Shown here piece after piece: positions 13,070 through 26,491 of a DNA stretch of 64,000 nt. A program made the translations under genes and the position numbers. The notes below the pieces were generated by a model. It saw only the letters and a list, made by a program, of their open reading frames with translations, ran no database searches and was not told where the DNA came from. Position 1 is the stretch's first letter, and each line of letters starts with the position of its first letter. The stretch is from Aminithiophilus ramosus (lineage in GTDB: Bacteria > Synergistota > Synergistia > Synergistales > Aminithiophilaceae). Location of the stretch: positions 2,109,453 to 2,173,452 of the forward strand of contig NZ_CP072943.1 of assembly GCF_018069705.1 (NCBI RefSeq), written 5' to 3'.

Positions 13070-13510
13070 CTATTGGAGCACGAACTCCGTGAAGAGCACC
13101 CTCTTCACGGGGGGCGTCCCCTTCAGGGGAGGGAGAAGCGCGTTGAGACGGGTCCGCAGATCCTGGGAGAGCTCGAGGAGCCCCTCGGCGCTGCGGAGGG
13201 CCGTGAAACGGCGGTCCTTCACGGTGAGGATGATCTCGTTCTTGATTCGCGTCAGCCAGCCCGGATCGGCCAGGGCCTCCGTGGCCTTCACCGACGTCAT
13301 CTCCAGGGTGAGGGAGAAACGGGCGATGCGGGGGTCCTTGTCGGCCAGGTTGACGGTGAACTCGCCGACGGGGACGACGGGACCGGGCGTATCGGCGACG
13401 ACATCGCCCTTGTCCGAACCGAGGCGGCCTCCCAGCAGAAGTCCCGCGCCGATTCCGCCGGCGAGGACGACGAGGACGACGACAGCGATGAGTGCGATCT
13501 TTTTGATCAT
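13070..13510 (-). CDS. fliL: Flagellar basal-body-associated protein FliL
   Basis: The 146-residue protein has one N-terminal membrane helix (about 5-28) and a periplasmic domain with the family pattern EFTVNLADKDPRIARFSLTLEM and a C-terminal VKRVLFTEFVLQ. FliL surrounds the stator units and supports torque under load. It lies between motB and fliM as in many motile bacteria and starts 25 bases after the motB stop. Confidence 0.94.
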   Translation of the reverse strand: MIKKIALIAVVVLVVLAGGIGAGLLLGGRLGSDKGDVVADTPGPVVPVGEFTVNLADKDPRIARFSLTLEMTSVKATEALADPGWLTRIKNEIILTVKDRRFTALRSAEGLLELSQDLRTRLNALLPPLKGTPPVKRVLFTEFVLQ

Positions 13511-13535
13511 CGGGCTTCCCTCCGAACGAAGTCAG

Positions 13536-14261
13536 CTAGCGGCGAGGATACTGGGAGAGGACGACCAGATCGACGCGGCGGTTGAGCCGTCGATGCTCGG
13601 CCGTATCGTTGGGAACGAGAGGCCTCGCGGGACCGAACCCCACGGCCTGGAGACGTCCCGCCTCGACTCCGGCCGAAATCAGGAAGGAGGCCACGCCCGC
13701 GGCCCTCATGGCCGAAAGGCCCCAGTTGTCCCGGTAAGGCCCTCCCCTGAGGGGGAGGCCGTCGGTGTGCCCCTCGACGGAAAGGGCGTTGGGCACCTCG
13801 GCCAGAAGAAGGCCCATCTTGTGGATCAGCCTCTGCCCCTCGGGGCGGAGATCGACGGCGCCCGTCTCGAAAAGGACCTGCTCCGAAAGGGAGATGACGA
13901 TCCCCCGCTGGTCGACGGTGACGGAGACCTGCCCCTCCATCTGTTCCCGGCGGACGAGGGCGACGACCCGCTCCGAGACGTGGCGGATGTCCTGGGTCTG
14001 GCGCGTCGACGTTCCGGCGTCGGAGGCCGTCTGGCCGCCGAAGGGATTGGTCGTCTCCTCCTCGACGGACTTGCCTCCGGGCATGACGCCCAGGGCGCCC
14101 TGGAAGGAGAGGAGGAGCTTCTCGAACTTCTGGACGTCGATCGTCGAGAAGGCGAAGAGGAAGACGAAAAAGGTCAGAAGGAGCGTCACCATGTCGCCGT
14201 AGGTGGTCAGCCAGGCCTGGCCGTTGCCGCCCGATTCGACCTTGCGCCGCTTGCGCGCCAT
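13536..14261 (-). CDS. motB: Flagellar stator protein MotB
   Basis: MotB anchors the stator to peptidoglycan and carries the ion-binding aspartate. The 241-residue protein has a basic cytoplasmic start, one membrane helix with Asp23 in the motif TTYGDMVTLLLTFFVFL, a plug/linker region and an OmpA-like peptidoglycan-binding domain (about 105-235, SVEGHTDGLPLRGGPYRDNW). The residue pattern around Asp23 is common to proton-type MotB, but the ion cannot be settled by eye. GGGGAGG precedes the ATG. It follows motA by 9 bases. Confidence 0.96.
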   Translation of the reverse strand: MARKRRKVESGGNGQAWLTTYGDMVTLLLTFFVFLFAFSTIDVQKFEKLLLSFQGALGVMPGGKSVEEETTNPFGGQTASDAGTSTRQTQDIRHVSERVVALVRREQMEGQVSVTVDQRGIVISLSEQVLFETGAVDLRPEGQRLIHKMGLLLAEVPNALSVEGHTDGLPLRGGPYRDNWGLSAMRAAGVASFLISAGVEAGRLQAVGFGPARPLVPNDTAEHRRLNRRVDLVVLSQYPRR

Positions 14262-14270
14262 GGACCTCCC

Positions 14271-15068
14271 CTACCTTTCCTCTCCCTTGCCGTCCCGGTT
14301 TTTCTCCTCGTCGAGAACGTCGCGGAGCTGAGGCGGCAGGAAAACCTTGAGCTTCTCTTCGACGATGCGGGGGTTCTCCCCGGCCTGGATGGCCAGGACG
14401 CCCTCGACCATCAGCTCCCGCGAGAGGACCTCCTCGGCGGAGCGCACGGCCAGCTTGCGCGAGACGGGGATGCAGATCACGTTGGCCAGGAAGGAGCCGT
14501 AAAAGGTGGTGATGAGGGCCACGGCCATGCCGGGCCCCAGGGCGTCGGGATCGCTGAGGTTGCGGAGCATCTGGATGAGGCCGATGAGCGTTCCCAGCAT
14601 GCCGAAGGCCGGAGCCAGTTCGGCCATGGTGTCGAACATCTGTTTGCCCGCGGCGTGACGGTCCTCGAGGAGGCCGATCTCCGTATCGAGGATGCCCTTG
14701 ACCAGCTCGGGATCGGTGCCGTCGACGACGAGCTGGATCGATTTGCGCAGGAACTGGTCGTCCAGCTCGGACGTGTCGTCCTCGAGGGCCAGGAGCCCCT
14801 CGCGGCGGGCCTTCTCGGCGAAGCTGACCAGAGTCTGGACGAGGCCGATCAGGTCGGGGCTCTCGGCGAAAAAGGCCCGGCGCAGCACCTTGCCGACCCC
14901 CCGTATCCGCTCCATGGGGTTGGCCATGATGGTGGCGCCGAAGGTGCCTCCGACGGTGACGAGCAGAGAGGGGAAGTTGACGAAGGCCCCCGGTTCACCG
15001 CCGACGACGATGCCCCCTATGACCAGAATGACGGCCAGGAGAAGGCCTATGAGCGTTGCCAGATCCAC
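14271..15068 (-). CDS. motA: Flagellar stator protein MotA
   Basis: MotA forms the ion channel with MotB. The 265-residue product from a GTG start at 15068 has four membrane helices (about 2-20, 30-50, 145-170, 180-205) and the cytoplasmic loop that meets FliG. Motifs include FPSLLVTVGGTFGATIMANP and LAPAFGMLGTLIGLIQML. GGAAGG lies about seven bases before the GTG. The same frame is open upstream through flbD without a stop, so a longer FlbD-MotA product is formally possible; this is noted separately. Confidence 0.94.
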   Translation of the reverse strand: MDLATLIGLLLAVILVIGGIVVGGEPGAFVNFPSLLVTVGGTFGATIMANPMERIRGVGKVLRRAFFAESPDLIGLVQTLVSFAEKARREGLLALEDDTSELDDQFLRKSIQLVVDGTDPELVKGILDTEIGLLEDRHAAGKQMFDTMAELAPAFGMLGTLIGLIQMLRNLSDPDALGPGMAVALITTFYGSFLANVICIPVSRKLAVRSAEEVLSRELMVEGVLAIQAGENPRIVEEKLKVFLPPQLRDVLDEEKNRDGKGEER

Positions 15069-15305
15069 GGCGGCACCTTCCTTTCGGCGACATCGGGCGC
15101 GGCGGTCAGTCCCTCTCCCCCGGGGGACGTTCAGGGACCGGCGGAAGGCGACGACGCGACCGACCACGTCCGAGACGGACTCGCGCACGACGTAGCGCCT
15201 CCCGTTGACGAGAAAGAGGACCGTGTCGGGCCGGGCCTCGACGGTCTCGATGAGATCGGCGTTGATCACGAAGACCTCGCCGTTGAGCCGCGTCACCTCG
15301 ATCAT
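15069..15305 (-). CDS. flbD: FlbD/SwrD-family small protein, frame open into motA
   Basis: From the ATG at 15305 (GGAGGAGG eight or so bases before it) the sequence MIEVTRLNGEVFVINADLIE followed by RPDTVLFLVNG matches the FlbD/SwrD family, a roughly 65-residue cytoplasmic protein found beside motA that supports motor torque. The family core ends at about residue 60 (RRSLNVP). No stop follows in this frame: it runs 19 more codons straight into motA. A single extra base in the run of five C and five G at 15117-15126 would bring a TGA at 15106-15108 into frame and give a normal 66-residue protein. I therefore annotate the domain up to the motA start. Confidence 0.8.
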
Positions 15306-15369
15306 CGCCGGCCTCCTCCGCGGGAGGGGAGAGAGGCGATCCCTCCCCTCCATTCTACATCAAGAAAGA

Positions 15370-18321
15370 CTACCGCTTCAGATTGATCAGCTCCTGGAGC
15401 ACGTCGTCGCTGGTGGTGATGACGCGGGCGTTGGCCTGGAAGCCGCGCTGGGCCAGGATGAGGCGGACGAACTCCTCGGTGAGGTCCACGTTGGACATCT
15501 CCAGATTGCCGCCCGAAATACTCCCGGCGCCGCCCTCGGTGGGAGAGCCGATCTGGGGAAGACCCGAGTTGGCGCTGGCCGTAAAAACCGTGTCGCCCTC
15601 CTTGTTCAGCCCCTGGGGGTTGGCGAAGAGGGCCAGGGCCACGCGGGAGAGGGCCCGGCTCTGATCGTTGCTGTAGACGCCGAGGATGACGCCGTCGGAG
15701 GTGACGGAGTAGTCCTCCAGGACACCCATCTCGTAGCCGTCCTGGGTGTAGGCCTTCGTCGAGAAGGCCGAGCCGAACTGGGTCACGCCCTCGATGGGCT
15801 CCTCGTCGAAGGATTCGCCGGAGAAATCGAGCGTCACCGTGGCGTCCTCGGCGCCGATGGCCGAGTAGGAGATGCCGATCTCGGCCGTGCCGCCCATCTC
15901 CAGCTTGCCGTCGGAGGTGAAGCGGAGGATCCCCGTGTTGTTCTGGAGCGGGATCGTCGACTCGTCGGGCAGGTAGGCCGTCCAGCTCCAGAGGTTGTTG
16001 CCCACCTTCTGCCAGACCACCTCCAGGGTGTGCTCGTTGCCCAGGGTGTCGTAGGTGCTGACCTTCGAGGAGTGCTGGCTGGCCAGGTTCTGCGTCACCG
16101 AGGCGACCTGGGTCCCTCCGGCGTTGGACTCGTAGGAAAAGAGAACCTTCCGCGAATCGCTGGGGTTGGGGATGGCCGTCACGGTGACGCCTCCCGTGAG
16201 GCCCGTGACCTGGGCGCTTCCCGAATAGGCCCCGCCCGAATAGGTCAGTCCCGTGCCGAAGGTGAAGGGCTCCATCGTCCCCTGCGCGTTGGGCCCCCAG
16301 AGGGTGATCGTGTCGCCGTAGTTGGCCCCGCCGGCGGTGGAGCTGCCGAAATCGACGAGGTACTGGCCTCCGTTGATCTCCGTCGTCTGGAAGTTGAACT
16401 CGGAATAACTCCAGAGGGTGGCCCCCGTGTCGGTATTCTTGACGGTGAAGGTCGACGTCGCGGGATCGTAGCCGTAGGTCACATCGGTCCCGTCGACCGT
16501 CCCCGTCGTCGTGCTGGGCACGAGGATGACCTCGCCGTCGGCCGAGACGCCCTTGAACTGGAGGGAGACCGTCTCGGCCGGCGTCCCGCCGTCGAAGAGG
16601 GAGAGGGTGATGAAATCGTCCGTCGTCGCTCCCTCTTCGAAGGAGTAGCGGACGGCGTTACCGCTCGAACTGGTGTAGGCCGTGGGGGCCGTGGCGAAAG
16701 CGGCGACCGAGACGGGATTGGCGGCGGGTTCGCTGGCTCCTGTCGGCTGTGTAAGAGTGAGTTGGCCTGTGCCTGTGTCGTAGGCAATGCCATAATGTGT
16801 CGCATCCGCCGTCGCTGCAAGCCCGGCGCTCTGCCAGGCGCTTCCGTCGTAGTAGTACAACGTATCGGTACCGGGGGTCACGGTAAACGTAGCGAAACCC
16901 GTCGCATCATCGAAACCGGTACAAGTGAGGTCAACCGTAGCCGACTGTGTCGTGGCCGTGCCGTCATCATAGGTCGTCGTCAGGGTAAGCGTCACCGTAT
17001 CGCCTTCAGCTACGGACGATGCCGAAAGGGAGCCGGACAGGGTGAAATCATCTTGAACGCCCGTATAGGTCGGTACCGAGGAGAGGCTGGCCAGGGTGGT
17101 CCCGGCCTTGCTGACGACGCTGTTCCTCCCCGACGGGGCGTAGGTGGGGTTGACGTTGGCCTTGAAGCGGAGGGCCTGGCCGTCGTCGGAGACCTCGAGG
17201 AGGACGCTGTGCGTGGCGGGGAACTCGATGTCGTCGGCGGTGACGACGCTGAGGACGGCCGTCGTGTCGAAGGTGCCGTCGTCGTTGCGGGGGACGCGCC
17301 ACTCGAAGTAGTCGAAGGTGTCGGGGTCCGTGGCGTTGGAGGTGTCGACGGCGGCGCCCCAGAGGCGGACGATGGCCGTGTTCCCCTCTTCGGTGACCTC
17401 GGCCAGGTAGGTCGTCTCGTCGCCGTTGGCGTCGGTGACGGTGACGGGCTCGTAGTTCATGTAGGCCCCCAGGGGGATCTGGGCGTCGTCGACGTTGAGC
17501 ATGCCCGTCTCGGTGTTGAAGTTGACGTAGTGCCCCAGGGCGTCGACGGGCTCCAGGACGGGATAGTAGGTGCCGTCCGTGGCCTGGGTGACGCCCGTCA
17601 GCTTGAGTTCGATCTCGTCGACGGTGCCGTCGGCCTGGTTCTCCAGGCGGAGGACGAGGAAGTTCGAGGCCTCCTCTCCCTCGCTCACCGAGGCCGTGTA
17701 GGCCTCGCCGAGAAGGGTGACGTTCATCTCCATGCCGTCGGGGACGCCCAGGGGCAGGTAGGGATCGACGCGGCTGTCGAGGTTGCAGCGGTAGCCGACG
17801 GTGGTGGTGGCGTTGGCCTCCATCTTCTGTCCCATGGGGATCTCGATGTCGGCCAGCGTCGACGTCTGGACGTACTTCGTCGGGTCGGAGCTGTCGACGG
17901 TGAGCTGATAGCCCTGGAGGCGGTAACCCGTGCCCGACTGGGCCAGCTTGCCCTCGCCGTCGAGGGTGAAGGCGCCGGCCCGGCTGTAGACGGTCTCGCC
18001 CAGTCCCTCGAGGACGAAGTAGCCGTCGCCGGAGATGGCCATGTCGTTGCGGCTGCCCGTGTAGTCCAGGTTGCCCTGGCTGTGGATGGTCTGGATGGCG
18101 CCGACTTTGACGCCGAGGCCGACCTGGGTGGGGTTGATGCCGCCCAGATCCTCCGTCGGGGCCGAGGCGCCGCTGCTCGTCTGGTAGAGAAGGTCCTGGA
18201 AGAGGACGGTCGATCGCTTGAAGCCCGTGGTGTTGACGTTGGCGACGTTGTTGCCGACGACGTCGAGATAGGTCTGGTGGCTGCGGACGCCGGTGACGCC
18301 GGACATAAGGGAACGCAACAT
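15370..18321 (-). CDS. flgE: Flagellar hook protein FlgE, oversized
   Basis: FlgE builds the hook. The N-terminal rod-like D0/D1 part is clear (MLRSLMSGVTGVRSHQTYLD, then VGNNVANVNTTGFKRS) and the C-terminal helix ends with the family pattern FVRLILAQRGFQANARVI. At 983 residues it is more than twice the common 400-450. The extra length is a Thr/Ser/Gly/Asp-rich beta-type region between about residues 150 and 820, which should form surface domains. A segment at about 16735-17050 has lower GC than its flanks. It follows flgD after a gap with two hairpins and is the partner measured by the equally oversized FliK. Confidence 0.94.
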   Translation of the reverse strand: MLRSLMSGVTGVRSHQTYLDVVGNNVANVNTTGFKRSTVLFQDLLYQTSSGASAPTEDLGGINPTQVGLGVKVGAIQTIHSQGNLDYTGSRNDMAISGDGYFVLEGLGETVYSRAGAFTLDGEGKLAQSGTGYRLQGYQLTVDSSDPTKYVQTSTLADIEIPMGQKMEANATTTVGYRCNLDSRVDPYLPLGVPDGMEMNVTLLGEAYTASVSEGEEASNFLVLRLENQADGTVDEIELKLTGVTQATDGTYYPVLEPVDALGHYVNFNTETGMLNVDDAQIPLGAYMNYEPVTVTDANGDETTYLAEVTEEGNTAIVRLWGAAVDTSNATDPDTFDYFEWRVPRNDDGTFDTTAVLSVVTADDIEFPATHSVLLEVSDDGQALRFKANVNPTYAPSGRNSVVSKAGTTLASLSSVPTYTGVQDDFTLSGSLSASSVAEGDTVTLTLTTTYDDGTATTQSATVDLTCTGFDDATGFATFTVTPGTDTLYYYDGSAWQSAGLAATADATHYGIAYDTGTGQLTLTQPTGASEPAANPVSVAAFATAPTAYTSSSGNAVRYSFEEGATTDDFITLSLFDGGTPAETVSLQFKGVSADGEVILVPSTTTGTVDGTDVTYGYDPATSTFTVKNTDTGATLWSYSEFNFQTTEINGGQYLVDFGSSTAGGANYGDTITLWGPNAQGTMEPFTFGTGLTYSGGAYSGSAQVTGLTGGVTVTAIPNPSDSRKVLFSYESNAGGTQVASVTQNLASQHSSKVSTYDTLGNEHTLEVVWQKVGNNLWSWTAYLPDESTIPLQNNTGILRFTSDGKLEMGGTAEIGISYSAIGAEDATVTLDFSGESFDEEPIEGVTQFGSAFSTKAYTQDGYEMGVLEDYSVTSDGVILGVYSNDQSRALSRVALALFANPQGLNKEGDTVFTASANSGLPQIGSPTEGGAGSISGGNLEMSNVDLTEEFVRLILAQRGFQANARVITTSDDVLQELINLKR

Positions 18322-18383
18322 GGCGGTCTACCCCCTTGAGGAATGGTTGTTCACGTTGGGCGCAATCCGTTGCGGTCCCCCGA

Positions 18384-18432
18384 GGCCGCCTTCCCTGGCG
18401 GCCGAAAGCCTCGTGACGGCACGCACCGTCAC
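18384..18432 (-). other. Two tandem hairpins between flgD and flgE
   Basis: Two perfect inverted repeats lie in the 107-base flgD-flgE gap. One pairs 18384-18390 with 18397-18403 (7 bp, loop of 6). The other pairs 18413-18419 with 18426-18432 (7 bp, loop of 6) and overlaps the flgD stop. Neither is followed by a T run on the minus strand, so they are not simple terminators. They may protect or process the mRNA so that flgE is made in larger amounts; this role is inference. Confidence 0.5.
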
Positions 18433-18836
18433 GCCGAGACGGAAAGCACGTCTTCCATGTAGAGGTAGCCCGAATCCGTCTCGAGGATGATCTCTCCGTC
18501 GTTGAAGTAGACGGCGTTGACGACGGCCGAAACGTTCGTCGCCGAGGTGCTGTCGTAGGCGGTGACGGTCTTGCCGATGAAGCTGACGGCACCCGTCATC
18601 TGCATCTGAGTCAGGTTTTCGATGCCGCTGCTGATGTTGGTCAGCTGTTCCAGGGAGCTGAACTGGGCCATCTGAGCGATGAAATCTTCGTTGGACACGG
18701 GATCCGTCGGGTCCTGGTGGGTCAGCTGGGTGATGAGAAGCTGCAAAAAGTCGTCCTTGCCCAGCTCTTTCGTGGCCTCGCTCGTCGTCGACGTGCTCGT
18801 CGACGTGCTCGCCGCAGCCGAAATGGAATTGATCAT
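18429..18836 (-). CDS. flgD: Hook-cap scaffold protein FlgD, short form
   Basis: FlgD caps the growing hook and guides FlgE polymerisation. This 135-residue form has a Ser/Thr-rich start, then the conserved block LGKDDFLQLLITQLTHQDPT and MAQFSSLEQL, and a short C-terminal part (GKTVTAYD). It lacks the large tandem C-terminal domains of enterobacterial FlgD, as is usual in Firmicute-like clusters. AGGAGG precedes the ATG. It lies between fliK and flgE. Confidence 0.93.
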   Translation of the reverse strand: MINSISAAASTSTSTSTTSEATKELGKDDFLQLLITQLTHQDPTDPVSNEDFIAQMAQFSSLEQLTNISSGIENLTQMQMTGAVSFIGKTVTAYDSTSATNVSAVVNAVYFNDGEIILETDSGYLYMEDVLSVSA

Positions 18837-18861
18837 CCTGCTCTCCTCCTTTATGCTCGCG

Positions 18862-21800
18862 TCAAGCCATCCAGGTCAGCAGGCCCCGTTCGAGATCGAG
18901 GGTCCCCTCGAGGGGCTCCTCCTCCTCGGGAAGGACCTGCTTCGTCTTCCGTCCGCCTTCGCCCCCGAGCGATCTCTCGCCGCCGTCGCTCCGAACGTCG
19001 ACGGAGAGGCCCTGCAGGGTGATGCCCGCCTGCTGGAGCGAGGTCCGAAGCTGGTCCAGCTGGCCTTGGATCGTCTGGCGCAGCCCCTCGTTGTCGACGC
19101 GAAGGGTCGCCTCGATTCCCTGGGCTCCCTGGCGGACGGCGATCTCGACGCGACCCAGAGCGGGCGGTTCGACGACGACGGTCGCCCGGTTTTTCCCCAG
19201 GGTGAGCGTCCTTTTGGCCGCCTCGGCCAGCCCTTCCGGCAGAGGGGCGCCGCTTTTGAGCCACTGGAGCGGTTCCTCGGCCGACGCCGACGTCGCGATG
19301 GAGGAACCGTTTCCTCCGGCGACGACCCGCCCCTGTCGAAGGATCTCTTTCTCCCCGCCGTCGTCGCGGAGCAGCGAGGCGAAGGCCACCTCGCGGACCG
19401 TCGACGTGCCACCGCCGATCACCTCCGCGGAGGACGGGAAGGCCAGGGAATCGCCCCGACGCCCCTCCCCTTCGAAGGTGTCGCCCTGGCCGGCCGAGGA
19501 GGAAGCCGCGACGGCAAGATCTTCCATGGGAGAACCCTCGGCTTTCGTGCCGTCGGCCGAGGTCTTTCGGGACCGTTCGACCGCCCCCTCCCAGGGCGCG
19601 CCCTCTTCGGCGGCGCGATCGGCCGCGGCGAAGGCCCACTCCCTAGGGGATGACTCTTTATTTTCGGCACCGCCGACGACGCTCTCAAGGGCTATCGCCT
19701 CATCGGCCCTTTTTTCCGCCTTCCCGCCGGGGACGAGATCGACCGGGCGAGAGGGCGACGACGCCGACGGGGAGGCGAACGTCTCGCCGTCGGAGACGTC
19801 GACGGCCTCCGCACCCTCGGCCGTCGACGTCTCCGCCTCGGCGCGCCCCCCGCCGAGAGAAGGAGCAGAGCCGTCTTCCCCGGCGGAGCGGGAGAGACGG
19901 GGGTTCGACATAAGGAATTCGAAGGCCGACCGCGGCGGGACAGACGCGGCGGACTCGACCGTCGGGCTGGGAACCGCCGTCACCGGCTCCGCCGAAGGTG
20001 AAGCGGGGATCTCGGCGGAAAGGACTCCGCGAGGCGACTCCGCCCCGGCCGGGCCGGAGGACAGGGAAGAGGCCTCCGCCGTCGCGCGGGAGGCGGCGCC
20101 GAGGGAGGGCTCGGCCGTCGGGGCCGTCCCGTCGGCGGGGGCCGGGGCCATCCCTGCGGCGGGGGCCGAAGAGGCCGTCGACGCCGCCGTCGGGAGGGAC
20201 ACCTCCGTCACCGGCTTCTGGGCCGTGAGGGGGACCTCCGTCGGCTCCGCCACCGGCTGGACCGGGGTCGTGACCGTCGTCGGCTCCGCCGCCGGACGGG
20301 GAACCGCCGTCACCGGCTCCGCCGAAGGTGAAGCGGGGATCTCGGCGGAAAGGGTTCCGCGAGGCGCCTCCGCCGTCGCGCGGGAGGCGTCACTGAGGGA
20401 GGCCTCGGCCGTCGGGGCCGTCCCGTCGGGGGAGGCCGAGGCCATCCCTGCGGCGGGGGCCGAAGAGGCCGTCGACGCCGCCGTCGGGAGGGACACCTCC
20501 GTCACCGGCTTCTGGGCCGTGAGGGGGACCTCCGTCGGCTCCGCCACCGGCTGGACCGGGGTCGTGACCGTCGTCGGCTCCGCCGTCGGACGGGGAACCG
20601 CCGTCACCGGCTCCGCCGAAGGGGACGGGATCTCGGCGGACCCGTCTCCGCGAGGCGACTCCGCCCCGGCCGGGCCGGAGGACACGGAAGAGGCCGCCTC
20701 CGTCGCGCGGGAGGCATCGCCGAGGGAGGCCTCGGCCGCAGGGGCCGTCCCGTCGGCGGGGGCCGGGGCCATCCCTGCGGCGGCAGCCGAAGAGGCCGTC
20801 GACGCCGCCGTCGGGAGGGACACCTCCGTCACCGGCTTCTGGGCCGTGAGGGGGACCTCCGTCGGCTCCGCCACCGGCTGGACCGGGGTCGTGACCGTCG
20901 TCGGCTCCGCCGCCGGACGGGGAACCGCCGTCACCGGCTCCGCCGAAGGTGAAGCGGGGATCTCGGCGGAAAGGGCTCCGCCAGGCGACTCCGCCCCGGC
21001 CGGGCCGGAGGACAGGGAAGAGGCCGCCTCCGTCGCGCGGGAGGCGTCGCCGAGGGGGGACTCGACCGCAGGGGCCGTCCCGTCGGGGGAGGCCGGGGCC
21101 ATCCCTGCGGCGGCAGCCGGAGAGGCCGTCGACGCCGCCGTCGGGAGGAGCACCTCCGTCGTCGGCTTCTGGGCCGTGAGGGGAACCTCCGTCGGCTCCG
21201 CCACCGGCTGGACCGGGGTCGTGACCGTCGTCGGCTCCGCCGCCGGACGGGGAACCGCCGTCACCGGCTCCGCCGAAGGGGAAGCGGGGATCTCGGCGGA
21301 AAGGGTTCCGCGAGGCGCCTCCGCCCCGGCCGGGCCGGAGGACAGGGAAGAGGCTGCCTCCGTCGCGCGGGAGGCGTCGCCGAGGGGGGACTCGACCGCA
21401 GAGGCCGTGCCGTCGGGGGAGGCCGGGGCCATCCCTGCGGCGGGAGCCGGAGAGGCCGTCGACGCCGCCGTCGGGAGGGACACCTCCGTCACCGGCTTCT
21501 GGGCCGTGAGGGGAACCCCCGTCGGCTCCGCCACCGGCTGGACCGGGGTCGTGACCCTCGTCGGCTCCGCCGCCGGGCGGACCGGGGTCGTGACCGTCGT
21601 CGGCTCCGCCGCCAGGCGGGGAACCGCCGTCACCGGCTCCGCCGAAGGGGAAGCGGGGATCTCGGCGGAAAGGGTTCCGCGAGGCGCCTCCGCCCCGGCC
21701 GGGCCGGAGGGCACGGAAGAGGCCTCCGCCGTCGCGCGGGAGGCGTCGCCGAGGGGGGACTCGACCGCAGAGGCCGTGCCGTCGGGGGAGGCCGGGGCCA

Positions 21801-23397
21801 TCCCTGCGGCGGGAGCCGGAGAGGCCGTCGACGCCGCCGTCGGGAGGGACACCTCCGTCACCGGCTTCTGGGCCGTGAGGGGAACCCCCGTCGGCTCCGC
21901 CACCGGCTGGACCGGGGTCGTGACCCTCGTCGGCTCCGCCGCCGGGCGGACCGGGGTCGTGACCGTCGTCGGCTCCGCCGCCAGGCGGGGAACCGCCGTC
22001 ACCGGCTCCGCCGAAGGGGACGGGATCTCGGCGGAAAGGACTCCGCGAGGCGCCTCCGCCCCGGCCGGGCCGGAGGGCACGGAAGAGGCCTCCGCCGTCG
22101 CGCGGGAGGCGTCGCCGAGGGGGGACTCGACCGCAGAGGCCGTCCCGTCGGGGGAGGCCGGGGCCGTCCCGTCGGCGGGGGCCGGAGAGGCCGTCGACGC
22201 CGCCGTCGGGAGGGACACCTCCGTCACCGGCTTCTGGGCCGTGAGGGGAACCCCCGTCGGCTCCGCCACCGGCTGGACCGGGGTCGTGGCCGTCGTCGGC
22301 TCCGCCGCCGGGCGGACCGGGGTCGTGGCAGGCTCGGCCGTCGGACGGGGAACCGCCGTCACCGGCTCGGCCGAAGGGGAAGCGGGGATCTCGGCGGAAA
22401 GGGCTCCGCGAGGCGCCTCCGCCCCGGCCGGGCCGGAGGACGCGGAAGAGGCCTCCGCCGTCGCGCGGGAGGCGGCGCCGAGGGGGGACTCGACCGCAGA
22501 GGCCGTGCCGTCGGGGGAGGCCGGGGCCATCCCTGCGGCGGGAGCCGGAGAGGCCGTCGACGCCGCCGTCGGGAGGGACACCTCCGTCACCGGCTTCTGG
22601 GCCGTGAGGGGAACCCCCGTCGGCTCCGCCACCGGCTGGACCGGGGTCGTGGCCGTCGTCGGCTCCGCCGCCGGGCGGACCGGGGTCGTGACCGTCGTCG
22701 GCTCCGCCGCCAGGCGGGGAACCGCCGTCACCGGCTCCGCCGAAGGGGACGGGATCTCGGCGGAAAGGACTCCGCGAGGCGCCTCCGCCCCGGCCGGGCC
22801 GGAGGGCACGGAAGAGGCCTCCGCCGTCGCGCGGGAGGCGTCGCCGAGGGGGGACTCGACCGCAGAGGCCGTCCCGTCGGGGGAGGCCGGGGCCGTCCCG
22901 TCGGCGGGGACCGAAAGAGGGGCTTCCACCGCGGCAGAGACCGTCACCACGGACAGAGCCGCCGCAGCGCCTTCGCCCGTCCCCACGGCAGACGATCCCG
23001 TCGGGGAGGAGCGCCTCTCGGAGGTCTCCTCCTCGACGGAAGACGCCGCGTCGGGAGAGAGGTCCCCGGGAACCGGCAAGGAGTCGTCGGGGCCCTCCGA
23101 GGCCGGAGAGAGGCCCTCCTCCGGAGAGTCGTGGGGAAGAGGAACTTCCAGGGAGGGCAGGAAGAGGAGCGCGCGGAAGGAGGCCGTCCCTTCGCCCTGC
23201 TCCGAACCCCCGACGGCGCCCCCGCCGTCGGAAGGCGTCGTCGTCGGCCCTCCGGCGACGCCCTTTCGGGAATCCATGTAAGCGCCGAGGAGGGTCGAGA
23301 AGGCCTCGGCCTTCACAAACCCCTCCCCTTTAGCCGTTCCTGAAAAGACCCTTCCGTTCCCTCCCGGGGGAAAAAGGATCAGGGAAGCCTTCGTCAT
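18862..23397 (-). CDS. fliK: Giant flagellar hook-length control protein FliK with internal repeats
   Basis: FliK is the secreted ruler that measures the hook and triggers the FlhB switch. The C-terminal Flg_hook domain (about residues 1380-1475) is recognised by the pattern TVVVEPPALGRVEIAVR and LRQTIQGQLDQLRTSLQQAG. Upstream lies an extremely Pro/Ala/Ser/Thr-rich region with nine repeats (eight full, one partial), making the protein 1511 residues long against about 400-500 normally. The N-terminal 40 residues (FSTLLGAYM) are less biased. Position between ylxF and flgD is canonical. The coding strand is supported by the conserved ends; the opposite strand is also open but has no family match. 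Confidence 0.92.
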   Translation of the reverse strand: MTKASLILFPPGGNGRVFSGTAKGEGFVKAEAFSTLLGAYMDSRKGVAGGPTTTPSDGGGAVGGSEQGEGTASFRALLFLPSLEVPLPHDSPEEGLSPASEGPDDSLPVPGDLSPDAASSVEEETSERRSSPTGSSAVGTGEGAAAALSVVTVSAAVEAPLSVPADGTAPASPDGTASAVESPLGDASRATAEASSVPSGPAGAEAPRGVLSAEIPSPSAEPVTAVPRLAAEPTTVTTPVRPAAEPTTATTPVQPVAEPTGVPLTAQKPVTEVSLPTAASTASPAPAAGMAPASPDGTASAVESPLGAASRATAEASSASSGPAGAEAPRGALSAEIPASPSAEPVTAVPRPTAEPATTPVRPAAEPTTATTPVQPVAEPTGVPLTAQKPVTEVSLPTAASTASPAPADGTAPASPDGTASAVESPLGDASRATAEASSVPSGPAGAEAPRGVLSAEIPSPSAEPVTAVPRLAAEPTTVTTPVRPAAEPTRVTTPVQPVAEPTGVPLTAQKPVTEVSLPTAASTASPAPAAGMAPASPDGTASAVESPLGDASRATAEASSVPSGPAGAEAPRGTLSAEIPASPSAEPVTAVPRLAAEPTTVTTPVRPAAEPTRVTTPVQPVAEPTGVPLTAQKPVTEVSLPTAASTASPAPAAGMAPASPDGTASAVESPLGDASRATEAASSLSSGPAGAEAPRGTLSAEIPASPSAEPVTAVPRPAAEPTTVTTPVQPVAEPTEVPLTAQKPTTEVLLPTAASTASPAAAAGMAPASPDGTAPAVESPLGDASRATEAASSLSSGPAGAESPGGALSAEIPASPSAEPVTAVPRPAAEPTTVTTPVQPVAEPTEVPLTAQKPVTEVSLPTAASTASSAAAAGMAPAPADGTAPAAEASLGDASRATEAASSVSSGPAGAESPRGDGSAEIPSPSAEPVTAVPRPTAEPTTVTTPVQPVAEPTEVPLTAQKPVTEVSLPTAASTASSAPAAGMASASPDGTAPTAEASLSDASRATAEAPRGTLSAEIPASPSAEPVTAVPRPAAEPTTVTTPVQPVAEPTEVPLTAQKPVTEVSLPTAASTASSAPAAGMAPAPADGTAPTAEPSLGAASRATAEASSLSSGPAGAESPRGVLSAEIPASPSAEPVTAVPSPTVESAASVPPRSAFEFLMSNPRLSRSAGEDGSAPSLGGGRAEAETSTAEGAEAVDVSDGETFASPSASSPSRPVDLVPGGKAEKRADEAIALESVVGGAENKESSPREWAFAAADRAAEEGAPWEGAVERSRKTSADGTKAEGSPMEDLAVAASSSAGQGDTFEGEGRRGDSLAFPSSAEVIGGGTSTVREVAFASLLRDDGGEKEILRQGRVVAGGNGSSIATSASAEEPLQWLKSGAPLPEGLAEAAKRTLTLGKNRATVVVEPPALGRVEIAVRQGAQGIEATLRVDNEGLRQTIQGQLDQLRTSLQQAGITLQGLSVDVRSDGGERSLGGEGGRKTKQVLPEEEEPLEGTLDLERGLLTWMA
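19960..22893 (-). repeat. Tandem repeat block inside fliK
   Basis: About 2.9 kb of tandem repeats with a unit of roughly 295-375 bases (98-125 codons). In protein each unit runs from APASPDGTA through SRATAEASS, SAEIPSPSAEPVTAVPR, TTVTTPVQPVAEPT, VPLTAQKPVTEVSLPTAAST to the next unit. Eight complete units and a partial ninth are present. Units differ by whole-codon gains or losses (some contain a second TTPVRPAAEPT segment, the eighth lacks SSGPAGAE), so the frame is always kept. Near identity of neighbouring units suggests recent expansion by unequal crossover or slippage. Confidence 0.93.
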
Positions 23398-23401
23398 CGG
23401 T

Positions 23402-24076
23402 TCACCTCGCAGATCCCGTCGAAGCCAGCTGTTCCGTCAGCCTCGCAGCTCGGGGAGCGTCCATGCTCCCGAGTATTTCGGCGGACTTGTCCTGGGGCAG
23501 CCCCCTGAGAAGGGCCACGGACAGCCTCTCGTCGAGTTCTTCGAGAATTTTCGCCGCCTTGCGCGAGGACATCTCCTGAAAGATGTTTCCCACGGATCGG
23601 AGAAGTTCCTCTGTAGTTATTTCGGGCTTTTCGGCGCCGACCTTAAGGCTCTCCGCCAGGGCCGCCTCCCGTTGCGCCAGGATTTCGGCCTTTTCGGCCA
23701 GTTGGGCGGCGAGGAGCTGAAGGGATTCCCCCTCCTCCGCCAGGTCGAGACGTTGCCGCCGAAGGAGGTCCTCCCTCTCGGCCAGTTCGGACAGGAGACG
23801 CTCTCCGGCCGAAAGGGCGAGATCGCGCTTCAGGCCAAGGGCCTCTCCGATGCGGGGACCGATGACGGGCAGGGACCAGACGAGCCGCGTCAGGGGCCCT
23901 TTGACGTCGGCGGCACCGCTGATCTGAAGGCCCAGGGCGGCGCCGAGAAGGAGGATGAGAAGGAAAAAGCAGCCGCAGCCCTTTCCCTTCTTTTTTTTCC
24001 GCGGCGGCCGCGGAGGGCGCGGAGTCGCGCCGGAGCCCTCGGCGCGATCGGGGCGATCGGGGCGTTCCTCGGCCAT
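23402..24076 (-). CDS. MotE/YlxF-like flagellar protein
   Basis: The 224-residue protein has a basic N-terminal tail rich in Pro and Lys, one membrane helix (about 37-55, FFLLILLLGAALGLQ), a coiled coil (about 90-150) and a C-terminal helical region (about 155-215, KAAKILEELDERLSVALLRG) of the MgtE-N type. This is the plan of MotE/YlxF, a proposed chaperone or periplasmic partner for stator MotC/MotB and export. Its place between fliJ and fliK matches ylxF of Bacillus. Function is inferred from family and position. Confidence 0.75.
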   Translation of the reverse strand: MAEERPDRPDRAEGSGATPRPPRPPRKKKKGKGCGCFFLLILLLGAALGLQISGAADVKGPLTRLVWSLPVIGPRIGEALGLKRDLALSAGERLLSELAEREDLLRRQRLDLAEEGESLQLLAAQLAEKAEILAQREAALAESLKVGAEKPEITTEELLRSVGNIFQEMSSRKAAKILEELDERLSVALLRGLPQDKSAEILGSMDAPRAARLTEQLASTGSAR

Positions 24077-24664
24077 CTAGACCCCACCTTCCTCTCTTCG
24101 GTAGCGGCTCAGGACGTTTCTGACGTAGGCCTGGGTCTCCCGGAAGGGGGGAATGCCGCCATAGGCGTCGACCCGACCCGGCCCGGCGTTGTAGGCGGCC
24201 AGGGCCTTCTCGAGATCGCCGTCGTAGCGGCTCAGGAGACCGGCCAGGTAGCGGATGCCGCCGTCGAGGTTCTGTTCGGGATCATAGGCGTCTTCGACGC
24301 CCAGCATCTTCGCCGTTCCCGGCATGAGCTGCATGAGTCCCATGGCTCCCTTGGGAGAGCGGGCCTGCGGGTTGCCCGCCGACTCGACGGCGATGACGGC
24401 CTGGACGAGGTCGTCGTCGACGCCGTGGAGAAGGGCCAGATTCTTGCGGATCCGATCGAGGTTGACCGTCGGCTCCGCGCTTCGGGCCCTTTTCGCGGGG
24501 GCGGGTTCGACGGGGAGATCGTCGGGGCGCTCCTCCTCGGCCAGGACCTCACGAAAGCGGGATTTCTCCTCCTTTTCGGGCAGGATCGCCTTGGGACCGA
24601 AACGGGATTGGATCGCCTCCACTCGCTGGAAGATCCGGACCAGACCGTCAAAGGAGTTTTTCAC
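24077..24664 (-). CDS. Lytic transglycosylase of the flagellar cluster
   Basis: The C-terminal 115 residues are an SLT-type lytic transglycosylase domain: catalytic Glu in [20 protein letters not shown], then [15 protein letters not shown] and [14 protein letters not shown]. Such enzymes open peptidoglycan for rod passage. The GTG at 24664 overlaps the fliJ stop (GTGA) and has GAAGGAGG nine bases upstream; the frame is open further up but the extra residues are basic and unlikely. No signal peptide is visible from this start, so export through the flagellar system is possible. It probably does the job of the FlgJ muramidase domain. Confidence 0.88.
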
Positions 24665-25128
24665 GCGTCGTCGCCTCCTTCTTTCATGGCCATGGCGGCG
24701 AATCGACTCGACGTCAGATCGTCCAGGAGGGCCTGTTCCTTTTTGAGACACTCCGTTCGCCAGAGCTCCCTGTAGCCGTCCAGGGCCGTCTCGAAGGTTC
24801 GGACCTCCCTGTGTTTGAGGAGCAGCTCTTCGCGGGCCGATTCGACGCCCCGAACGGCCAGGGCCAGGCAGCGGCCGTTCTCGTCGAGGTTACGGCCGAT
24901 CCGGTCGAGATCGCAGCGGCTCATCCAGAGTTCCTGAACGGTCGTCGCCTCGACGGCGCGGCGGCCGAAGGAGGCCAGAGCCTCTTCCTTCTCGCCTCGG
25001 AGTTTATCCATGTGCCCTTCGAGGGTCGTCTTTTCTCTCTGGCGGTTGCCCAGCTCCTCCTTGAGGAGATCCTCCTCGCGCTCCTTGGTCTGCAAGAGGC
25101 GTTTGAAACGATGAATGCGCTGAATCAT
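24661..25128 (-). CDS. fliJ: Flagellar export chaperone FliJ
   Basis: The 155-residue protein is almost entirely a charged antiparallel coiled coil with the family start [17 protein letters not shown]. FliJ links the FliI ATPase ring to FlhA and escorts export chaperones. It begins 17-20 bases after the fliI stop and overlaps the transglycosylase start. Confidence 0.9.
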
Positions 25129-25147
25129 CGGGCAAAACCTCCTCCGG

Positions 25148-26491
25148 TTAGGCTCCCAGCCCCTGAGGCTTGGGGATGAGCGACGTCAGACGACGGACCG
25201 TCTCCTCGAAGGTGAAGGCCTCTTCGACGTTCTGGATCAGGAAGGAGCGGACCTTTTCGAGATGGGCCAGGGCCCAGTCGATGCGGGGGTCGCTCCCCTG
25301 GCGGTAGGCGCCGATGCGGATCAGGTCTTCGCCCTCGGCATAGTAGGAGAGAAGCTGACGGAGGCGGCCGGCCGCCTCCAGGTGTTCGGCCGTGACGATG
25401 GAGTTCATGACGCGGCTGACGCTGTTGAGGACGTCGATGGACGGGTACTGGTTACGGGCCGCCAGATGGCGGGAGAGGACGACGTGGCCGTCGAGGATTC
25501 CCCGGACGCTGTCGGCGATGGGCTCGTTCATGTCGTCGCCCTCGACGAGGACGGTGTAGACGCCGGTGATGCTCCCCTGCTCGCCCGTACCGGCCCGCTC
25601 GAGGAGACGGGGCAGAAGGGCGAAGACGGATGGGGTGTAGCCTCGCGTGGCCGGCGGCTCGCCCACGGCCAGGCCCACGTCGCGCTGGGCCATGGCGACG
25701 CGGGTGACGGAGTCCATCATGAGGAGAACGTTGCTCCCCTGGTCGCGAAAGTATTCGGCGATGGCCGTCGTCGTCATGGCCGCCTTGAGCCGGACCAGGG
25801 GCGGCTGATCCGACGTGGCGACGACCAGGACGGACCGTTTGAGCCCTTCCGCGCCGAGATCCCGTTCGATGAACTCCCGAACTTCACGGCCCCGCTCTCC
25901 GACAAGACCGATGACGTTCACGTCGGCCTCGGTGCTGCGGGCCATCATTCCCAGCAGGGTGCTCTTGCCGACGCCGGAACCGGCGAAAATGCCGATGCGC
26001 TGCCCCTGACCCAGGGTGAGAAGGCCGTCGACGGCCTTGACGCCCACCGAAAGGGGCTCTTTGATGGCCCGGCGGCGCAAGGGGTGAGGCGGAGAGGCAT
26101 AGAGGGGGTAGGATCGGGTGACCAGGAGAGGCCCCTTGTCGTCGAGCGGACGGCCCAATCCGTCGAGGACGCGCCCGAGAAGCCCTTCTCCGACGGGCAC
26201 GGAGAGGGAGCGGCCGAGGGAGACGACGTCGCATCCGGGGCCGATATCCTGAAGGTCTCCGAGAGGCATGAGCAGGACCCGATCTCCGCGGAAGCCGACC
26301 ACCTCGGCCTTGAGGGCGGCGCTGCGGCGGCGGAAGCGGATTTCGCACAGATCGCCCACCTTTACGTCGGGGCCTTGCGACTCGATGACGAGACCCACGA
26401 CCTGGACGACGCGACCGTTGACGGAGACGAGGTCGGCGACGGCGAGGCGGGCCTCGAGGGTTTCGAAGAGGGAGGTTTTCTCAGGCCTCAT
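25148..26491 (-). CDS. fliI: Flagellum-specific ATPase FliI
   Basis: FliI is the hexameric F1-beta-like ATPase of the export apparatus. The 447-residue protein shows Walker A GIFAGSGVGKSTLLGMMARS, the ERGREVREF motif, Walker B NVLLMMDSVTRVAMAQRDVG and GEPPATRGYTPSVFALLPRL. The start MRPEKTSLFETLEARL (ATG 26491) overlaps the last 11 bases of fliH; a longer open frame exists but is not FliI-like. Length is normal. Confidence 0.97.
   Translation of the reverse strand: MRPEKTSLFETLEARLAVADLVSVNGRVVQVVGLVIESQGPDVKVGDLCEIRFRRRSAALKAEVVGFRGDRVLLMPLGDLQDIGPGCDVVSLGRSLSVPVGEGLLGRVLDGLGRPLDDKGPLLVTRSYPLYASPPHPLRRRAIKEPLSVGVKAVDGLLTLGQGQRIGIFAGSGVGKSTLLGMMARSTEADVNVIGLVGERGREVREFIERDLGAEGLKRSVLVVATSDQPPLVRLKAAMTTTAIAEYFRDQGSNVLLMMDSVTRVAMAQRDVGLAVGEPPATRGYTPSVFALLPRLLERAGTGEQGSITGVYTVLVEGDDMNEPIADSVRGILDGHVVLSRHLAARNQYPSIDVLNSVSRVMNSIVTAEHLEAAGRLRQLLSYYAEGEDLIRIGAYRQGSDPRIDWALAHLEKVRSFLIQNVEEAFTFEETVRRLTSLIPKPQGLGA

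Follow-up and report, generated by a model that had tools for sequence, protein, structure and literature searches.

The window analysed here, a 64,000-nt stretch of the Aminithiophilus ramosus genome (contig NZ_CP072943.1), carries a flagellar gene cluster in the order fliF-fliG-fliH-fliI-fliJ-fliK-flgD-flgE, of which fliF, fliG, fliH and fliI were named by inspection (Table 1). fliK is preceded by fliJ, by a gene for a lytic transglycosylase and by one with an MgtE_N-like domain, and is followed by flgD and flgE. The fliK product matches the Flg_hook family (PF02120; 56.5 bits against a cut-off of 29.8, E 2.4e-15), while no NCBIfam family matched it at E 0.01; the name is therefore based on the Pfam domain together with the place of the gene. 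FliK is the single PF02120 match (E 0.001) in the genome, which consists of one contig of 3.108 Mb. The FliK proteins of two congeners are 541 and 526 aa long and devoid of repeats, and the tripling of FliK length (to 1511 aa) proposed in the first-pass annotation is thus about right.

Table 1. Features of the fliK-flgE region, in coordinates of the window
Feature	Position	Strand	Basis
flgE, hook protein, 983 aa	15370..18321	-	Pfam, NCBIfam and phmmer searches
FlgE middle module (probably surface), aa 190-745	16087..17754	-	Dethiosulfovibrio-type; sequence comparison
flgD, encoding the hook cap, with fliK and flgE on either side	18429..18836	-	profile search
fliK, giant hook-length control protein, 1511 aa	18862..23397	-	ORF; Pfam Flg_hook (PF02120); single copy in the genome
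Flg_hook (export-switch) domain of FliK, aa 1398-1472	18982..19206	-	Pfam match; dN/dS about 0.25-0.28
Partial ninth repeat unit, about 46 aa	19969..20106	-	anchor cutting
Repeat array of eight complete units (98-123 aa each)	20107..22851	-	direct-repeat search, Tandem Repeats Finder, anchor cutting
One-unit difference region (366 nt absent in strain G001; 31 identical nt at the breakpoints)	22476..22872	-	genome comparison

Between a short N-terminal part and the intact switch domain, FliK is occupied by a tandem array rich in alanine (23%), proline (17.5%), threonine (12.8%) and serine (11.4%). Cutting at a conserved anchor yielded nine unit starts (residues 183-1098) in an array that spans residues 183 to about 1143; the unit lengths are, in array order, 122, 121, 122, 123, 110, 110, 109 and 98 aa, followed by the partial ninth. 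The nine repeats of about 110 residues described earlier are therefore real and in frame, their exact count being eight full units plus a partial one, and the in-frame length variation was borne out, as every unit length corresponds to whole codons. The array was also recovered independently by direct-repeat search, and Tandem Repeats Finder reported periods of 369 (94% match, score 3102) and 330 (94%, score 2097); the repeats are beyond chance. The 122 and 110 aa forms of the unit differ mainly by a 13-aa sub-repeat. An AlphaFold model of FliK aa 1-520, computed with no alignment and of low confidence (mean pLDDT 42), contained no predicted helix in the array, a weak sign that the array may be disordered.

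Comparison of the eight full units gave a mean dN of 0.060 and a mean dS of 0.058 (ratio 1.04). Units 1 and 3 differ at only 2 of 366 aligned nt, and shuffling of the array must therefore be recent. In contrast, the switch part (last 140 aa) compared with the two congeners yielded dN values of 0.30 and 0.27 and dS values of 1.08 and 1.07, that is, a dN/dS of about 0.26. The domain is thus under constraint, whereas the sequence of the array is almost free. Such a contrast in constraint would fit a tape in which length counts above sequence; a ratio near 1 is also compatible with plain neutral expansion. Near-neutrality is not universal among FliK arrays: the ratio is 0.84 in L069, 1.00 in L072 and 0.52 in L074, whose array is moderately constrained.

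Within the family, the window's genome was compared with three others, namely a second genome of the same species (G001; complete, a single contig of 3.197 Mb) and two of the same genus. Over 12.9 kb (window positions 13407-26272), the two conspecific genomes are set apart by 4 SNPs, a 1-nt indel and a gap of 366 nt, which is exactly one unit; FliK is accordingly 1389 aa long in G001. Repeat number is hence not fixed in the two genomes of the species, one unit being present in the first and absent from the second. Of the earlier proposal that repeat number tunes hook length by recombination, it is the recombination between units that this within-species variation fits. Gain and loss of the unit are indistinguishable, since there is no array-bearing outgroup. 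We regard as improbable that the strain difference is an assembly artefact, with a repeat collapsed or expanded and a true number that is fixed. Only two genomes are involved, and close by lies another difference, of one base in a G run, such as sequencing errors typically produce. Against this, both assemblies are single contigs, most unit pairs differ at 11-28 nt (though some at only 2-5), the change amounts to precisely one unit with clean breakpoints, and two genomes of the Dethiosulfovibrio group show a similar length difference in the repeat region. The G run in question, at position 15127, is one base shorter in the window than in G001; as a consequence, FlbD and MotA read as one 360 aa ORF (14271-15353) in the window and occupy separate frames in G001, the joining being either a sequencing error or a real fusion.

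Of 185 genomes surveyed across the phylum, 125 had a match to PF02120 and 121 a match to FlgE_D2. Among the matches listed for these 125 genomes (low-scoring matches being partly omitted), the longest FliK frame is that of the window (1524 codons), followed by those of G001 (1402), G111 (1387), G083 (1232) and G068 (1201). We collected 84 loci, comprising the window, three other loci and 80 further loci of the phylum, and tandem arrays exceeding 100 aa of FliK were found in 11 of the first 64 (window, L006, L069, L071, L072, L073, L074, L075, L077, L078 and L125). No tandem array was found in L076, whose FliK frame counts 1100 codons, and a long FliK is therefore not always a visible array. 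By eye, the array sequences of the window, L069, L072 and L074 seem unrelated, and the best-listed BLAST matches of FliK between lineages fall in the C-terminal part. FliK proteins longer than 690 aa occupy three places in the FlgE-core tree described below: the window's species, the Dethiosulfovibrio group (L069, L071, L072) and a rumen clade, where nine rows have them. Judging from this distribution, long FliKs, mostly built from repeats, arose independently at least three times in Synergistota. The label Dethiosulfovibrio is taken from L130, which has the same FlgE module, and the rumen label from L131-L135. A plasmid search with the C-terminal part of FliK returned no match.

The hook protein was also described as oversized, and it is: FlgE of the window measures 983 aa against 619 and 620 aa in the congeners, although FlgEs of 1334 and 1487 aa also occur in the phylum. 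Four domains score above their cut-offs (PF00460, PF22692, PF07559 and PF06429, corresponding to rod, D1, D2 and C-terminal FlgE/F/G). The two ends of the protein (aa 1-190 and 745-983) are nearest to the congeners, with 69-73% identity. The middle is nearest to the Dethiosulfovibrio group (for example, 44.8% identity over 212 aa of aa 190-400, E 6e-60), and aa 190-745 gave no match below E 0.01 against the congeners or against L089 and L090, members of the Dethiosulfovibrio group with a short FlgE. Recombination of the middle module is the simplest reading of this mosaic. FliK is complete in five of the genomes that bear the module (window, G001, L069, L071, L072), and in all five it has at least 809 aa; the module is also carried by L070, where FliK is truncated, and by L130, which has none on the contig. 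A stretch of about 160 aa within FlgE occurs, by eye, in about three tandem copies in L069, about four in L070, one in the window and none in L071 and L072. A structure prediction for FlgE based on a six-row alignment reached a mean pLDDT of 37. An 'Ig-like' fold for the middle was considered and discarded as a guess, the sole domain hint being DUF7927, which at E 0.0096 falls short of its cut-off. The solved 851 aa FlgE chain 5jxl, which we take to be that of Campylobacter jejuni, is unlike the window's FlgE in that the best phmmer stretch spans only aa 2-184 of the latter. C. jejuni FlgE resembles it in being large, described as about twice the Salmonella size through the added outer domains D3 and D4 (PMC5097172).

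In order to relate FliK length to FlgE size, we used a tree built from 400 aligned columns of 71 FlgE cores (in the window's protein, residues up to 170 and those from 748 on), which is a tree of the FlgE core and not of genomes. The correlation comprised 70 rows, 13 of the 84 loci being dropped along with L006, a duplicate of the window. FliK was cut by a contig or locus end in L070, L091, L116, L143, L148 and L152; a complete FlgE was absent from the locus in L075, L083, L084 and L085 (FliK of 1127, 853 and 747 aa in L075, L084 and L085, respectively); and FliK was missed by the one-sequence query in L144, L149 and L155. Where a genome had two FlgE genes, the better-scoring copy was used, which was the larger in every case listed. 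Such pairs, a large and a small FlgE gene side by side, occur in L069 and L070 (G111 and G109), L087, L088, L117, L118 and L130; the window has a single flgE.

FliK exceeds 690 aa in 13 of the 29 genomes with an FlgE of at least 800 aa and in none of the 41 with a smaller one, where it is never longer than 668 aa; all 13 of these long FliKs adjoin an FlgE of at least 844 aa. The association was recovered by PGLS (slope 0.78, p 0.0004) and by independent contrasts (r 0.33, p 0.006). Nevertheless, p rises to 0.09 without the window, to 0.08 without Dethiosulfovibrio and to 0.84 without both, and contrast signs are concordant in only 35 of 61 cases: the pattern, though real, depends on a small number of events, namely two joint jumps. 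FlgE was enlarged on the same branch as FliK in the window's species and in the Dethiosulfovibrio group; in the rumen clade, it was already large. The co-evolution of FliK with the hook protein that had been suggested for this locus accordingly holds as a phylum-wide association, which is suggestive, but not as FlgE size tracking repeat number. A tight one-to-one coupling was rejected, given that FlgE is 983 aa long in both strains despite the unit difference, that L087 and L088 combine FlgEs of 993 and 986 aa with FliKs of only 674 and 653 aa, and that 14 rumen-clade rows pair FlgEs of 803-885 aa with FliKs of 483-596 aa.

Taken as a whole, the gene is in our view rather probably best explained as a FliK hook-length ruler whose tape was enlarged by tandem duplication. 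FliK would be exported during hook growth, its short N-terminal part would engage the growing hook tip, and the Flg_hook domain would switch FlhB once the tape was stretched out. The array would act as a disordered, proline-rich spacer lengthening the tape, and recombination between adjacent units would add or remove whole units. Salmonella FliK variants of 363-785 aa are reported to produce hooks of 42-135 nm, linear with inserted length at 0.2 nm per residue (PMC6126814), and one unit would at this rate be worth about 20-25 nm of hook. For a fully extended chain, 0.37 nm per residue is given (PMC6972891), so that longer hooks would be possible, with about 36-46 nm per unit. At the Salmonella rate, extrapolation from 405 aa and 55 nm predicts a hook of 276 nm in the window's strain and of 252 nm in G001, against 82 and 79 nm in the congeners. 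Several points speak against such a ruler: the protein has nearly double the length of the largest engineered FliK in the Salmonella work (785 aa), the Salmonella ruler segments are called helical whereas the array looks disordered in the model, and longer hooks are reported to impair Salmonella swimming, which would make a 250 nm hook surprising (all PMC6126814).

The longer ruler would be paired with a bulkier, probably stiffer hook. The axial rise per hook subunit is given as 4.12 A, nearly equal to that of the rod (PMC5288503), and the outer domains D3 and D4 of FlgE are described as lying at larger radii, where they make up outer layers that could render the hook stiffer (PMC5097172); a longer hook is therefore not expected from a bulky FlgE alone. 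To bend, a stiffer hook might need more length, and a longer one may restore bending; in the lineage of the window, the Dethiosulfovibrio-like FlgE middle would have been swapped in on the branch of the FliK expansion. We tentatively put forward, as a possibility, that the array is a natural adjustable tape on which unit recombination yields hooks of about 250-280 nm, differing by about 24 nm between the sister strains, that such tapes arose repeatedly in Synergistota after or together with bulky FlgE domains, and that the length of the ruler evolves jointly with the thickness of the hook, keeping the joint flexible.

The repeats might instead be unselected, slippage-prone filler in a disordered linker of FliK that folds back or spools, with hook length not proportional to protein length. 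The dN/dS of the units would suit such a filler, as would the variation of the repeat region between close relatives (FliK of 809 and 915 aa, FlgE of 875 aa in both) and the situation in one rumen clade, where FliK spreads from 700 to 1214 aa but FlgE stays at 844-877 aa. Yet inserts in Salmonella FliK are reported to lengthen the hook linearly (PMC6126814), and none of the 41 genomes with an FlgE below 800 aa has a FliK beyond the 668 aa limit, though slippage should be possible there as well; the window-array indels are, moreover, all in frame, though this is expected of any needed gene. On balance, we deem unselected filler somewhat unlikely. A purpose other than measurement, such as letting FliK bind or pause along the enlarged hook of FlgE or its cap, or the timing of export, with hook length as a side effect, would agree with the reported binding of N-terminal parts of Salmonella FliK to FlgD and FlgE (PMC6972891) and with the company that long FliKs keep with large FlgEs across the phylum. 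The seemingly unrelated repeats of the different lineages and their low constraint in the window nevertheless argue against a specific binding motif, and we consider this purpose very improbable.

For the ruler that we favour, several known systems offer parallels. Phage tail tape-measure proteins obey the same principle, the length of the protein setting that of the tube; they differ in building phage tails, in having no Flg_hook domain and in another way of stopping growth. Salmonella FliK (405 aa) shares with that of the window the C-terminal Flg_hook switch domain, the hook and export gene neighbours and a presumed role in export and measurement. The window's protein departs from it in being 3.7 times longer, in its natural tandem array of proline-rich units and in a unit number that varies between strains. 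A parallel in this last respect is YscP of the Yersinia injectisome, a type III ruler described as varying between strains of one species from 452 to 538 aa by repeats of 14, 25 and 46 aa (PMC3469391), and strain variation of type III ruler repeats is to this extent already known. YscP, likened here by description and not by sequence, measures an injectisome needle and not a flagellar hook, and is much shorter than the window's FliK; its length effect is tied to helical content in work cited in PMC3469391, whereas the array is predicted to be disordered. We found no tandem-repeat FliK among the open-access papers searched, although one may have been described, and as far as these searches show, the novelty lies in the ruler being flagellar, in its size and in its having arisen repeatedly.

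Support for the ruler model of hook length comes mainly from engineered Salmonella mutants. In the present case, a natural and nearly identical strain pair differs by one ruler unit, and congeners have a ruler of one-third the length without an array, so that the scaling of the ruler, its upper limit and its coupling to the bulk of the hook protein become directly measurable. With a sister strain one segment short, whether nature sets hook length by gain and loss of segments can be addressed.

An antisense ORF of 1420 aa (19019-23281, plus strand) crosses the fliK array and was set aside, since GC-rich codons are its probable cause. Many Synergistota genomes show, besides the main PF02120 match, a weaker one whose frame measures about 350-390 codons; the window's genome has one match.
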